DNA of 64,000 bases from Abyssibacter profundi (lineage in GTDB: Bacteria; Pseudomonadota; Gammaproteobacteria; Nevskiales; OUC007), in contig NZ_QEQK01000005.1 of the NCBI RefSeq assembly GCF_003151135.1, positions 124,001-188,000 of the forward strand, given 5' to 3'. Each line of letters starts with the position of its first letter. Positions within the stretch are counted from its first letter, which is position 1. This document shows, in pieces, positions 47,091-63,464 of the stretch. Position numbers and translations under genes: made by a program. The notes under the pieces are model-generated. The model did not search any database. It had not been told where the DNA came from and saw nothing but the letters and a program-made list of their open reading frames with translations.

Positions 47091-47263
47091 ATGCCCGCGA
47101 CACGGACGAAAAGATGCCCGCTCATGCCATGTTCTCAGAGAGGCGGTTCCTGAAATATCACAACTGACCGGCGATGAGCATTGAAGTGAGTTTCTAACAT
47201 TCGCGGCAGAACGAACCGATCTACACCACGTGTTATCGTCCTCGTGATGATGACGGAGCCACC

Positions 47264-47536
47264 ATGCAAGTCGATGCCGTTACGTTCGGAAAATCGGTTG
47301 TCTGGAAACCTTTGCACAAGATGCAGGCCATGAGTCAAGCAACAGTAGACCGGCATTCGGGCGCTCTCGGTGAGGTTCGCCAGATTAGGCGGCCTAAGCC
47401 CAATATTTGCGTTGATTCCGGGCAGAGACTCGTGGCTATCAACTCAATAAGTGATTGTTTTAACGAGGGAAGGTCCGACGTCCAGCAGGCCCGCGTTGGT
47501 GGATTAGGTGGCCTCTGTCCATCCAATAAGCGTTAG
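47264..47536 (+). CDS. Uncertain small open frame before the cassette array
   Basis: 90 codons from ATG 47264, preceded by GGAG at suitable spacing, and ending in the TAG of the GTTAG core that starts cassette 1. I recognise no family, and the sequence has no clear domain. It could be a real gene in a decayed cassette, or chance. It covers most of the 441-base stretch 47091-47531 between the flavoprotein gene and the first cassette; apart from a possible degenerate recombination site at 47455-47538, I see nothing else there. Confidence 0.25.
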   Translation: MQVDAVTFGKSVVWKPLHKMQAMSQATVDRHSGALGEVRQIRRPKPNICVDSGQRLVAINSISDCFNEGRSDVQQARVGGLGGLCPSNKR

Positions 47537-47554
47537 AACCCTAAGGAAGAATCA

Positions 47555-47803
47555 GTGGCACACCCGTCCCTATTTAAGAGTGTCCTCTTCGGTTACGTAG
47601 TGGGCGCTGGCGCGTTCTTTCTGCCGCTGTGGCTGCTCTTTGCCATGCCATCTATGGCTCAACAGGCCGACATTGGCTGGGCGAAGGCAATAGGCACGGC
47701 CGCATTGATACCGGTCATCCTCATCTTCCAAGGCATTATCCTCGGCGGCATCGTCAAGTTCGGCTGGTGGATCATCCGTAAGGTGCAGAGATCACCCTCA
47801 TGA
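47555..47803 (+). CDS. Cassette 1: small two-helix membrane protein
   Basis: 82 residues starting at GTG 47555, with AAGGAAGA upstream. Two membrane segments are evident (~9-32, ~46-72: IGTAALIPVILIFQGIILGGIVKFGWWII), and the end is basic (RKVQRSPS). No family recognised. It is 8 bases upstream of its attC, and expression presumably depends on an outside promoter. Small membrane proteins are common in cassettes; toxin, defence or transport-accessory roles are all possible and untested. Confidence 0.7.
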   Translation: MAHPSLFKSVLFGYVVGAGAFFLPLWLLFAMPSMAQQADIGWAKAIGTAALIPVILIFQGIILGGIVKFGWWIIRKVQRSPS

Positions 47804-47811
47804 GCGTTGTA

Positions 47812-47882
47812 GTTCTAACAAGCAGTTCCAGCCGACAAATTCGCGCTGCGCGCGACTTCGCGGCTGAGCTGCGGCGTTAGGC
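47812..47882 (+). repeat. attC site of cassette 1
   Basis: 71 bases from GTTCTAAC to GTTAGGC. The left arm AGCAGTTCCAGCCGA and the right arm GCGGCTGAGCTGC pair imperfectly, and the loop is GC-rich. The GTTAGGC core opens cassette 2. Confidence 0.9.
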
Positions 47883-47886
47883 ACCC

Positions 47887-48201
47887 ATGAACGGAACTGA
47901 CAAGTTCAATCTCTACCCGATGGCAGTGCTCGTTGTCGCTGCAAGAACGTCTACTCTACATATATCTTGGTTACTGCTCGTGATCGGTGGTCCAATGGTG
48001 TATTTCAACAATACGTTGTCTCTCATGGGGAAGCTCGTCGTAGTCCTCATCGTATTTATAGCCATCTGGGTCTGCTACTTTCTTCTATGCTGGGCATTTC
48101 ATCGCCGGAGTCTCCGCAAGGAGGAAAACCTTGCTGCATACCAGGCGCTAAGCGTTACGGAACGCGGACATCAGCTCGGTTCGTGGCTCGAGGATTGGTG
48201 A
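47887..48201 (+). CDS. Cassette 2: small membrane protein
   Basis: 104 residues from ATG 47887, only 4 bases after the GTTAGGC core and with no Shine-Dalgarno sequence, as often seen in cassettes; an internal ATG at 47920 is the alternative. Two membrane segments (~25-41: ISWLLLVIGGPMVYF, ~47-71: LVVVLIVFIAIWVCYFLLCWAF) precede a charged tail (HRRSLRKEENLAAYQALSVTERGHQLGSWLEDW). No family recognised. The stop lies 7 bases before its attC. Confidence 0.65.
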   Translation: MNGTDKFNLYPMAVLVVAARTSTLHISWLLLVIGGPMVYFNNTLSLMGKLVVVLIVFIAIWVCYFLLCWAFHRRSLRKEENLAAYQALSVTERGHQLGSWLEDW

Positions 48202-48208
48202 CACTGAA

Positions 48209-48280
48209 TGCCTAACAAGTGGTTCCAGGCGACAAAATTTTGCTGCGCGAAAATTTCGTGCCTGAACCACGGCGTTATGC
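48209..48280 (+). repeat. attC site of cassette 2
   Basis: 72 bases from TGCCTAAC to GTTATGC. Arms GTGGTTCCAGGC and GCCTGAACCAC pair with a single unpaired base, the extrahelical-base pattern of attC, around an AT-rich loop with AAAATTTT and AAAATTT. The core opens cassette 3. Confidence 0.93.
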
Positions 48281-48325
48281 GCCAACCCAGCAATCCAGAG
48301 CCGTCTCAAAAGCTAGGAGAAATAT

Positions 48326-48685
48326 ATGTCAGATTCAGTCTCAACCTTCTTTGAAGCATGGCAAATCGAAGATGCCAATGCTCGAAAAGAGAAAATTACT
48401 GCCGCTGTATCAGAAGGCATCAAGTATGACGACCCTCGCACGCCGGAGACCATTACGGGCATCGAGGCATTAAGCGACTATGACGGCATGTTCAGTGCAA
48501 ACGCTCCGGGCTGGTCAGCCAAAGTCGTCAAAAGCGACACCATCGGTGGCATCACAAGAAGCACAGTTGCTTTTGGCGGGAAAGGCCCTGATGGAACGGA
48601 GCAAGTGCAACTGGGGCAGTATTATTCGGAAACGGAAGGTGGTCTAGTTTCGCGCTTTGTGGGATTTGTCGGCACCGGCGAGTAG
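48326..48685 (+). CDS. Cassette 3: NTF2/SnoaL-like protein
   Basis: 119 residues from ATG 48326 with AGGAGA upstream. The sequence (SDSVSTFFEAWQIEDANARKEKITAAVSEGIKYDDP, then GIEALSDYDGMF, AFGGKGPDGTEQVQLGQYYSETEGG LVSRFVGF) follows the short cone-shaped NTF2/SnoaL fold: N-terminal helix, conserved W/YxDP, central ligand pocket. Such proteins bind or isomerise small ligands, and many are of unknown function. It is soluble and cytoplasmic with no signal peptide. Confidence 0.75.
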   Translation: MSDSVSTFFEAWQIEDANARKEKITAAVSEGIKYDDPRTPETITGIEALSDYDGMFSANAPGWSAKVVKSDTIGGITRSTVAFGGKGPDGTEQVQLGQYYSETEGGLVSRFVGFVGTGE

Positions 48686-48711
48686 CAATAGTCGCTGTTG
48701 CAGCTACACAT

Positions 48712-48801
48712 GGCGCATAACAAGTGCATGGAGAGGGACGTTTTTTCCGCTACGCGCTTCGCGCTCCACTCCAATAACGCCCCTCATGCACGGCGTTAGG
48801 C
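48712..48801 (+). repeat. attC site of cassette 3
   Basis: About 90 bases from GGCGCATAAC to GTTAGGC. Arms GTGCATGGAGAGGGACGTT and AATAACGCCCCTCATGCAC pair imperfectly; the inner part TACGCGCTTCGCGCTCC can form a second hairpin. The core opens cassette 4. Confidence 0.92.
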
Positions 48802-48805
48802 GTCA

Positions 48806-49681
48806 ATGGGCGATAGTGCAATGTTGAAGCAGCTGCTAAATCTACCGGAATCAGTTACAGACCAACGGCTCCGAGAAATCTGCGACGATTTCGATGCCAC
48901 GGTATACCCGAAGGTTCGAGTTGCTGATGTGCTGCCGATTGAGAAAAGCGGCATAGACAATGAGCAGTATCGCTACGCCCTTCAGGCACATTTTGATTTT
49001 GTTGTTGCCGATTCGAAGGCACATCCTCTATTCGTAGTCGAGTTCGATGGAAGCTCACACTCAGAGCCAGACGCAAAACGCCGAGATCGACTCAAGAACG
49101 CGCTGTGGGAACGATTCAATGTTCCAATTTTGCGGATCAATCGCCGTTACTTGAGTGACAAATTCTCCGATTGGGACTTATTGCGCTGGTTCGCCACTGT
49201 GTTTTTCGTGAAACGGTCGTGGGATGAAGATGTTGAGTCGGGCCGTATCCCCCCGGAGGATTCGGTTTTTGATCCTGCATTCGTTTCGGTTCGAACGAAA
49301 TCAGGTTACCTCGGCCTTGATCTGGAGCGAGGCGCATGGGCAGAGTTTGGGCGTCTCTCTCAAGCTCAGAAAATCCCATGGCATATTCCAAATTGGATTA
49401 CGGCCCGAGACACTGAAGGGGTTCTAAGGGCCATCGCCTGGATGCCTGTATCAAATGATGAAGCTGTCGTTGCTGAGACGGCAATGCACCCCCACAATCT
49501 AGGTGACTGGGTTCAATTTGCAGTCCGGGGCATTGTCCTAACCCACCTAATGAAAAATCTAACGCAGGTGCTCGAAGGAAAAGACGTCGCAAGGCCGCGC
49601 GAGGAGATCGTGGGTCGCGCCCGAGAATTCGAATCAGCACATACCGTTATCATGGCCTTCGGCTTGGTGGAGCCTAAGTGA
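48806..49681 (+). CDS. Cassette 4: DUF2726-type protein with a nuclease-like fold
   Basis: 291 residues from ATG 48806, just after the attC core; ATG 48821 is an alternative. Residues ~55-115 match the DUF2726/Vsr-like endonuclease core: Asp64 in AHFDFVVADSKAHP, the acidic strand VVEFDGSSHSEP with Glu79, Asp81 and His85, then RDRLKNALWERFNVPILRIN, the helix-strand that follows in this superfamily. The C-terminal half (~120-291) has no domain I recognise (SGYLGLDLERGAWAEFGRL, RAIAWMPVSND). Integron cassettes often carry phage-defence genes, so DNA cleavage in defence is a reasonable idea, not shown. Confidence 0.78.
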   Translation: MGDSAMLKQLLNLPESVTDQRLREICDDFDATVYPKVRVADVLPIEKSGIDNEQYRYALQAHFDFVVADSKAHPLFVVEFDGSSHSEPDAKRRDRLKNALWERFNVPILRINRRYLSDKFSDWDLLRWFATVFFVKRSWDEDVESGRIPPEDSVFDPAFVSVRTKSGYLGLDLERGAWAEFGRLSQAQKIPWHIPNWITARDTEGVLRAIAWMPVSNDEAVVAETAMHPHNLGDWVQFAVRGIVLTHLMKNLTQVLEGKDVARPREEIVGRAREFESAHTVIMAFGLVEPK

Positions 49682-49700
49682 TTGTAAACATGGTAGAAAA

Positions 49701-49807
49701 GACGCCTAACAAATCGTATATGGACTCCTCCCGCAACCGGGCAGTCGAAGACGTCTAGATCGAGGCGATAGAGGTGCGGTTGCGGTCGTATATTCGGCCT
49801 GTTGATG
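49701..49807 (+). repeat. attC site of cassette 4 (diverged or last)
   Basis: About 107 bases from GACGCCTAAC to GTTGATG. Left AACAAATCGTATATGGAC and right-arm complement AACAGGCCGAATATACGAC match in most positions, and CCGCAACCG pairs with CGGTTGCGG. No later site complements GTTGATGGGC, so the array seems to end here. From 49808 to 49992 there is no gene; 49952-49974 holds the phrase AATAGGCGACAGACCCC, which may be debris of an element. Confidence 0.7.
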
Positions 49808-49992
49808 GGCTCTTACGGCCCTGGCCTTCATGGAAATCCGCATCGAGTCGTGCCACACGCTGCAGCTGCAACTGAGCTTCTCGCTCTGATTTGTTACCGG
49901 CATCTAGACCCGTTTCGCCATGATCACTGTCTTTTCCAATTAATAGGCGACAGACCCCAATTTCGAGCTTGAAGCACGCTGACCAGCGCGTA

Positions 49993-51213
49993 CTACTGGC
50001 CTGCCGGCTTCGCCTGCACCGCGTCGCGCACTTTCATCGCACGGGCCTTGACCTCATCCAGCCGGTCGATCGAGGTGCCCAGGGCTAAGGCGACGCCCAT
50101 ACGGCGACGGCCGTTGACGCCGGGCTTGCCGAATAAGCGCAGTTGGGTGCCGGGTGTGGCGAGTGCATCGCCTGCGCCTTCGAACACCGGGGCGCCAAGT
50201 TCGCCTTCGACGAGCACGGCGGCCGAGGCTGCGGGCCCGAGCTGCTGTATGGCGGGGATAGGCTGTCCGAGGATGGCACGCACATGCAGCGCGAACTGGC
50301 TGAGATCCTGCGAGACCATGGTGACCATCCCGGTGTCATGCGGTCGGGGCGAGACTTCCGAGAACCAGACCTGGTCGCCTTTGACGAACAGCTCTACGCC
50401 GAATACGCCGTAGCCTTCCAGGGCATTGGTGATGGATTCAGCGATGGCCTCGGCACGTGACTGGGCCATGACGGTCATTTTCTGCGGCTGCCAGGATTCG
50501 CGGTAGTCGCCGTCTTCCTGACGGTGGCCAATCGGGGCACAGAAGCTGGTGCCGCCGGCATGGCGCACGGTTAGCAGGGTGATCTCGTAGTCGAAATCGA
50601 CAAAGCCTTCGACGATGACGCGGCCGGCACCACTCCGGCCACCATCCTGGGAATACGTCCACGCGGCTTCGATGTCGGCTTCGCTGCGGATGACGCTCTG
50701 GCCCTTGCCGGAGCTGCTCATCACCGGCTTGATCACGCAGGGTGTGCCCAAGATCGCGACGGCATCGCGCACCTCGGCCAGCGTGTTGGCGAAGCGGTAC
50801 GGTGAGGTGGGCAGCTGCAAGGCTTCGGCGGCCAGGCAGCGGATGCCTTCGCGGTCCATCGTGAGGTTGGCGGCGCGCGCCGTGGGCACGACATTCCAGC
50901 CTTCCTTCTCGAGCTTGATCAACTCACCGGTGGCGATGGCCTCGATTTCCGGGACGATGTAATCCGGTTTCTCGGCTTCGATGACCGCGCGCAGCATGAC
51001 CGGGTCGAGCATGTTGATGACGCGGGCGCGGTCGGCCACCTGCATGGCCGGCGCGTTGGCGTAGCCGTCGACCGCGATGACTTCCAGTCCGAGTCGCTGC
51101 GCCTCGATGGCGACTTCTTTGCCCAGCTCTCCGCTGCCCAGCAGCAGCAGGCGTGTCGCATGCGGCGTGAACGGCGTGCCGATGCGATCCCCAGATGTTG
51201 ATTTCCCCGTCAT
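49993..51213 (-). CDS. purT: Formate-dependent phosphoribosylglycinamide formyltransferase
   Basis: 406 residues from ATG 51213. PurT makes formyl-GAR from GAR, formate and ATP, an alternative to folate-dependent PurN. The ATP-grasp layout is clear: [104 protein letters not shown]. Substrate-binding [12 protein letters not shown] is present. It marks the return to high G+C after the cassette array and is divergent from frmA. Confidence 0.95.
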
Positions 51214-63231: not shown

Positions 63232-63333
63232 CATCGGGCGGCAGGTCCGCGACGCTGACCCGCAAGGGTCATGCTGTGGCGGGTCGCCTGCGGTGCTTCG
63301 CCCCTGCGTACAGTTCACGTAAGCTAGCCGGGA

Positions 63334-63408
63334 CGTCCCAGGGGTGCCGGATTCCGGCTGAGAGAGTCCCTTGGAACCTGAACCGGATTGTGCCGGCGTA
63401 GGGAGCGG
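63334..63408 (+). promoter_or_regulatory. TPP riboswitch (THI element)
   Basis: The conserved phrases occur in order: AGGGGTGC, CGGCTGAGAGAGT, CCCTTGGAACCTGAACCGGAT and TGCCGGCGTAGGGAGC, with the outer stem GTCCC/GGGA(G)C. It lies 56 bases before thiC and senses thiamine pyrophosphate to lower thiC expression; a GAGGAG ribosome-binding site at 63454-63459 lies downstream, compatible with translational control. Confidence 0.95.
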
Positions 63409-63464
63409 ACGAGGCGCGAGATCCCATCGTGCCCGGTCGCTCGCGGTGCCGGCGAGGAGCCCCC

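Follow-up and report, generated by a model that had tools for sequence, protein, structure and literature searches.

A stretch of 64,000 nucleotides from Abyssibacter profundi (the window) contains a four-cassette integron remnant without an integrase, and the fourth cassette carries an intact gene (48806-49681, forward strand) for a 291-residue protein that joins a DUF2726 domain, predicted to have a restriction-type nuclease fold, to a second domain outside Pfam. What might such a gene do in such a place? The reading that we favor, and to which we give about an even chance, is that it is a horizontally acquired, one-gene nuclease effector in an integron cassette, most likely a restriction-like enzyme directed against phages or plasmids. 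A defense role is plausible, and the gene is a candidate only.

An integron remnant with four cassettes

The array starts with an attI-like sequence (47501-47535, forward strand) that has its recombination point, G/TTAG, at 47532. This left end is read as attI because it resembles sequences upstream of intI genes on two other contigs of the genome: its 35 nt share 88.6% identity with a sequence that precedes the intact intI on contig C19, and positions 47523-47538 are identical at 16 of 16 bases to the sequence upstream of the truncated intI on contig C12. Three cassettes on the forward strand separate it from the DUF2726 gene. The ORFs of the first (47555-47803, 82 aa) and the third (48326-48685, 119 aa) are without a family match, and that of the second (47887-48201, 104 aa) has no match over a curated cutoff. 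They are followed by attC1 (47812-47882), attC2 (48209-48280), and attC3 (48711-48801), likewise on the forward strand, whose folding as single-stranded DNA gives z scores of -1.64, -3.39, and -3.04, respectively. The final bases of attC3 constitute the 5' end of the DUF2726 cassette, the G of G/TTRRR being located at 48795. The attC of the DUF2726 cassette itself is incomplete: there is an R'' box (49701-49710, forward strand), the exact reverse complement of the cassette 5' end over 10 nt, a match that none of 2000 dinucleotide shuffles of the downstream stretch reaches, without an R' partner, and the region 49690-49780 folds no better than chance (z 0.71). Pairing between the 5' end of each cassette and the R'' box after its own ORF is a sharper test of cassette status than attC folding, and it is present in all four cassettes, over 8, 8, 11, and 10 nt in array order. 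An attC pattern scan of the whole genome produced five forward matches and a reversed-pattern control one; a covariance model from four attC sites was dropped, as it contained only three base pairs.

The composition of the array differs from that of its surroundings. From about 47.2 to about 49.9 kb, GC content dips to 50-54% from about 64%, and GC3 is 0.52 in the DUF2726 gene and 0.53-0.70 in the other three array ORFs, compared with 0.81-0.84 in five flanking genes. In a congener (G062) the site is empty, either through insertion in the window genome or through loss in the congener: matches to both flanking genes are 110 nt apart there, compared with 3018 in the window. The array is closed by a repeat of about 235 nt (49703-49937) that starts inside the R'' box, has further copies in this genome on contigs C2 (92%) and C21 (90%) and one in G062 (83%), and may be a conserved array-end element. 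No integrase remnant was found near the array, the intact intI being on C19. A preliminary description of the gene, made from the sequence alone, had called it a mobile cassette. Its status as a cassette is borne out by the attI-like end, the three attC sites, the complementary ends of all four cassettes, and the empty site in the congener. Mobility is better put in the past: the gene has been carried in an array, but this array has no integrase and the attC of the cassette no R'. Nor was a sigma-70-like promoter found in 47100-50000, and because integrase, complete attC, and promoter-like site are all missing, both present expression and present mobility of the gene are doubtful. It may be silent in the decayed array of today.

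Other integron remnants are found in the same genome, at C19:61757-62701, C19:62942-62976, C12:134884-135111, and C5:348168-348205. They comprise one intact and one truncated integrase plus further attI-like copies, one of these on the contig of the window array, at a distance of about 175 kb, and one attI type is common to several of the remnants. The ORF that directly follows the truncated intI on C12 (L020:9386-10069) matches the N-terminal part of the PADLOC candidate-defense models PDC-M54A (E 4.3e-32) and is possibly, judged by this match, a second defense-related cassette. Near the intact intI on C19 there is a ParE-type toxin gene (L019:12395-12706, E 3.7e-16) preceded by a short ORF; toxin-antitoxin pairs are usual in integrons. 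The window itself also contains a TPP riboswitch (63330-63422, forward strand, 66.4 bits with Rfam).

A nuclease domain and a rapidly diverging second domain

The ORF has exactly the position given in the preliminary description, and the two-domain gene is present in a single copy in the 3.74-Mb genome. Its true start codon may be that of M6 (48821) rather than 48806, since three of six relatives (L040, L041, L045) begin at or beside the M6 column of an alignment of seven members, i.e., the window protein and these six, aligned over the whole length. Residues 9-113 match Pfam PF10881, DUF2726, with 56.5 bits against a gathering cutoff of 24.7 (E 3.1e-15), and searches at E up to 1 find DUF2726 in all seven full-length members (best E 1.5e-17). 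The MTES_1575 REase family (PF18741) is below its gathering cutoff for the window protein (19.6 versus 38.2 bits) and matches six of the seven members at E up to 1. No PADLOC family (library of 2023) matches the window protein at E up to 1, NCBIfam yields nothing credible, and PHROGs gives two weak matches, to a family of unknown function (E 0.00035) and to an HNH endonuclease (E 0.0021).

The N-terminal domain (48833-49159, forward strand; residues 10-118) contains the residues D64, E79-x-D81, H85, and R93-D94-x2-K97 that the preliminary description had correctly pointed out. Invariant in all seven members are D64, E79, D81, H85, D94, and K97, together with, among others, E15, K36, H62, D69, G82, and R110, and the acidic and histidine residues of this set (E15, D64, E79, D81, H85, D94) would form the active site. 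An AlphaFold2 model of the whole protein, with the seven-sequence alignment as input, has a pLDDT of 85.5 and a pTM of 0.80. When residues from about 9 to 139 of the model are compared with solved structures by VIA, the best fold is that of the NGO0050 endonuclease-like protein 3hrl (Z 8.3, rmsd 2.4, 92 residues), followed by the catalytic domain of I-Bth0305I 3r3p (Z 7.8, rmsd 3.0, 95 residues) and TnsA 1t0f (Z 6.9, rmsd 3.9, 94 residues); further restriction enzymes rank below, with Z scores of 5.3-6.7 for the nuclease half. Foldseek found no match to the whole model in the PDB at E <= 0.001, and sequence searches of the PDB gave nothing credible, their top rows being a chaperonin or designed coiled coils. 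Among predicted viral proteins Foldseek found six matches at E <= 0.001, one of them named DUF2726. The model supports a predicted PD-(D/E)XK fold for the N-terminal half, nearest to the Vsr/EDxHD side and to restriction-type nucleases. The EDxHD nucleases, of which I-Bth0305I is the type, have an active site similar to that of type II restriction enzymes (PMC3943268). The preliminary description had postulated a restriction-like fold, to be checked by profile and structure-prediction comparison of both halves; the Pfam profile and the model neighbors 3hrl, 3r3p, and TnsA agree with it, and the same comparison gives the C-terminal half a dsRBD-like arrangement.

The C-terminal domain (49160-49678, forward strand; residues 119-291) has a predicted alpha-beta-beta-beta-alpha core at about residues 172-259, and when modeled alone it reaches a pLDDT of 80.4 and a pTM of 0.71. 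Its 173 residues have no Pfam match above cutoff in any of the seven members. The preliminary description had called a domain of about 170 residues unrecognized; it is not wholly so, since the domain is conserved and its predicted arrangement, seen by VIA with the domain model, is dsRBD-like. Chains that contain a dsRBD fill the ten top VIA rows (Z 6.4-7.0), every one of them in the range below Z 8 in which common arrangements are warned of; the closest include TRBP 7zpj (Z 7.0, rmsd 2.2 over 72 residues) and RNase III 2ez6 (Z 6.5, rmsd 2.3 over 67), and the hibernation-factor folds of HPF and Rv1738 score nearly as high (Z 6.3). Foldseek with the domain model found no PDB match at E <= 0.001, and the Pfam dsRBD has no match to the seven members at E up to 1. 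Canonical dsRBDs bind RNA through a lysine cluster, the KKxAK motif with which the last helix begins. In none of the seven aligned members is there a lysine cluster at this position, and six of them have a domain that is net acidic. We did not adopt dsRBD membership, with the lysine-rich KKxAK motif missing from seven of seven and all Z scores below 8. The relatives are 35-54% identical to the window protein over the nuclease part and 15-26% over the C-terminal part, and such faster divergence might fit a part that is engaged in recognition.

Relatives, neighborhoods, and possible roles

A scan of genome contigs with the window protein as a single sequence found no full-length relative; the family was recovered with a two-sequence alignment of the window protein and a Methylocella tundrae plasmid protein as query. 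One such scan yielded six loci, from Pirellulales, Puia, Rubrobacter, an uncultured proteobacterium, Chloroflexi, and Methylocella, that is, from Planctomycetota, Bacteroidota, Actinomycetota, Chloroflexota, and Pseudomonadota, and these are the six relatives of the alignment. In a pairwise comparison, the C-terminal parts of the Methylocella and window proteins do not score above chance, the local score being reached by 385 of 1000 shuffles. Matches occur in 11 of 85 genomes of the order, 15 of 369 of the class, and 22 of 398 of the phylum (own genome included), and judged by match ranges, one of them checked by alignment, a single divergent protein (G777, L046) is the only other full-length one. 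In the Chloroflexi seed group 17 of 281 genomes match, only the seed at full length. With a C-terminal profile, the seed is the one match in 274 genomes of the Pirellulales group, and the seed and G1425 are the two in 277 of the Puia group. In the Rubrobacter group 12 of 286 genomes match, and the C-terminal part is reached by the seed and one divergent protein. Two plasmid records, both from Methylocella, are covered to at least 80% by a relative. No relative was found in viral contigs, scanned with the window protein alone and with alignments, and no sequence relative in phage records. In its full-length, two-domain form the family is rare, with members dispersed among five phyla. A divergent full-length relative of the Rubrobacter group (L122, G1866:C1:1145398-1146141) appears to have lost the catalytic motif region and may represent an inactive family member. 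A group II intron match (L041:65-139, Rfam RF00029, E 1.7e-6) precedes the Puia relative by about 290 bases.

Neighborhoods of 11-17 kb were examined for six relatives (L040, L042, L043, L044, L045, L092); L041, at 3.9 kb, was omitted as too short. In four of the six, a PADLOC defense-gene match could be assigned to a protein. The Methylocella gene is accompanied by a ThsB-like TIR protein (E 1.3e-59), PDC-S31 (E 4.9e-31), and a PDC-S58/ApeA-like protein (E 1e-23); the Rubrobacter gene by a divergently oriented, HNH restriction-like gene 86 nt away (E 1.1e-20); the Chloroflexi gene (L044) by an SMC/LmuB-like ATPase gene that starts 388 nt downstream (E 3.5e-29); and the G1425 gene by bSEFIR at 4.4 kb (E 3.3e-107). 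No defense gene was assigned in L040 or L043; a large neighbor in L040 has a beginning that, as we take it, resembles UvrA. Outside these six, the G777 neighborhood (L093) has a HipA N-terminal-like gene. When pooled, 59 neighbor ORFs match 41 PADLOC models at E <= 1e-10, and the control, 108 ORFs taken from nine stretches elsewhere in these six genomes, matches 102 models, mostly PD-T4-6 and other kinase models among the 25 of 102 listed. The raw counts prove nothing, because the control stretches match many models too. The defense link is plausible through the identity of the assigned neighbors and not through a statistic. The preliminary description had proposed a single-gene defense system and a survey of homologs for defense islands. 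The predicted nuclease fold, the cassette, and the ThsB, LmuB-like, bSEFIR, and HNH matches in four of six neighborhoods speak for its proposal, but the control comparison of PADLOC matches did not discriminate.

How would a solitary nuclease of this kind work? The N-terminal domain would be a metal-dependent endonuclease that cuts DNA with D64, E79, D81, and H85, and the C-terminal domain would recognize a feature of invading nucleic acid, or a phage protein, and license the cutting. No partner gene would be needed, since the DUF2726 gene travels alone. The target would be phage or plasmid DNA, and direct cleavage of foreign DNA is favored over killing of the infected cell. We count for a defense effector the DUF2726 match, the invariant residues, the model neighbors, the cassette anatomy, GC3, the empty site, rarity with wide spread, the defense neighbors, the published link of DUF2726 to AbiJ-NTD3, and the faster divergence of the C-terminal domain. 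Against it we count the lack of a PADLOC match and of an assigned defense gene in L040 and L043, the many raw PADLOC matches of the control, the membrane anchoring of most classified DUF2726 proteins, the missing promoter-like site and integrase, the incomplete attC, and the lack of phage or viral sequence relatives. If the gene protects, it would add a compact two-domain nuclease, with its second domain outside Pfam, to the integron-borne defense repertoire, give the soluble DUF2726 subfamily a function, and provide a small system (291 aa) for the question of how, with no methylase, a lone nuclease distinguishes foreign DNA from that of the host. Should it not protect, the locus still stands as a plain example of an intact accessory nuclease in a fossil integron.

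The strongest competitor of the defense effector, although itself unlikely, is an accessory nuclease of the ordinary DUF2726/Vsr side that repairs or processes DNA, acting on mismatches or damage and not on phages. Vsr, the namesake of the fold, is a repair enzyme, and one DUF2726 gene sits by traD/traX on a conjugative Salmonella plasmid. The common DUF2726 proteins also look different and more general. A rough script applied to both strands classified 42 of 63 other DUF2726 loci, leaving 21 unclassified: in 31 of the 42 a TM-like segment precedes the domain, and in 12 of these a Cys motif follows it; nine have neither a TM segment nor a long tail, and two lack a TM segment but are long at the C-terminal end. 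By its sequence, the window protein belongs to this last, minor kind, and its subfamily, without a TM segment, with a different C-terminal domain, very rare and scattered, and with several members adjoining defense genes, does not look like one of general repair. It is quite unlikely that the protein is the nuclease subunit of a multigene defense system, stranded in a cassette and either inactive or in need of chromosomal partners. Relatives do adjoin ATPase, HNH, and TIR genes, as in L044 with its SMC/LmuB-like gene, but the neighbor differs from locus to locus, and no partner recurs among the six neighborhoods.

Decay of the array makes one think of a silent passenger, a true nuclease fold with no present role that is degrading together with its cassettes. 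Apart from the missing integrase, the incomplete last attC, and the absence of a sigma-70-like site, the start codon is only a few nucleotides past attC3, which leaves no room for a promoter of its own. We nevertheless find this improbable: the 291-codon ORF is intact with every invariant residue present, and integron promoters, which lie in attI/intI regions, may deviate from the consensus of the scan. A highly improbable, more elaborate form of immunity would have a dsRBD-derived domain sense a duplex formed during infection, such as dsRNA, an RNA-DNA hybrid, or a structured intermediate, and switch on the Vsr-type DNase, as one-gene immunity stored in integrons and spread across phyla; if true, it would join, in bacteria, a sensor of the RNA-duplex type to a restriction-type nuclease. 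Least credible is a selfish gene like a homing endonuclease of the EDxHD type, for which the second-best structural neighbor (I-Bth0305I) and the invariant E..D..x..H..D order, reminiscent of the EDxHD name, might be cited, but no intron was found, Rfam giving only the TPP riboswitch in the window, phage records gave no relatives, and Pfam gave no match to NUMOD-type DNA-binding modules.

Known systems with similar parts

The defense effector that we favor can be compared with several known proteins. With DUF2726 it shares a full domain match above the curated cutoff and the D..ExD..H signature; most of the DUF2726 members found, however, carry a membrane segment at the N terminus, together with a short tail or a Cys motif, whereas the window protein has no TM segment and a second domain of 173 residues. 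The nearest solved folds, 3r3p (I-Bth0305I) and 3hrl (NGO0050), are only 15-19% identical and are not matched at the sequence level in the PDB. The C-terminal domain has a predicted alpha-beta-beta-beta-alpha arrangement like that of the dsRBDs of TRBP, Staufen, RNase III, and Dicer, but unlike them it has no Pfam dsRBD match and no lysine cluster, and HPF and Rv1738 score nearly equally. Searched by title, with most subscription papers outside the search, the literature gave no description of this two-domain protein.

Integron cassettes that carry anti-phage systems were reportedly described in 2025 by Darracq, Kieffer, and Getz, to go by the titles. The window gene is likewise a single cassette gene with a plausible defense role, but it is a candidate, in an array without an integrase. 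In Xanthomonas, 20 cassette orthologs (1.8%) are predicted defense genes, and arrays without an integrase are common outside the main locus, as stated in PMC12444791. DUF2726 is absent from the main text on DefensePredictor (PMC13092281), and Pfam still lists it as of unknown function. A defense link and a restriction-type DNase fold of DUF2726 had been proposed in 2013: Anantharaman et al. (PMC3710099) describe it as a DNase with the REase fold and report, among proteins related to abortive infection, its fusion to AbiJ-NTD3. The AbiJ-NTD3 fusion and the window protein have in common a nuclease domain proposed for defense, but AbiJ-NTD3 is an N-terminal partner in that account, whereas the partner in the window protein is C-terminal and belongs to no Pfam family.
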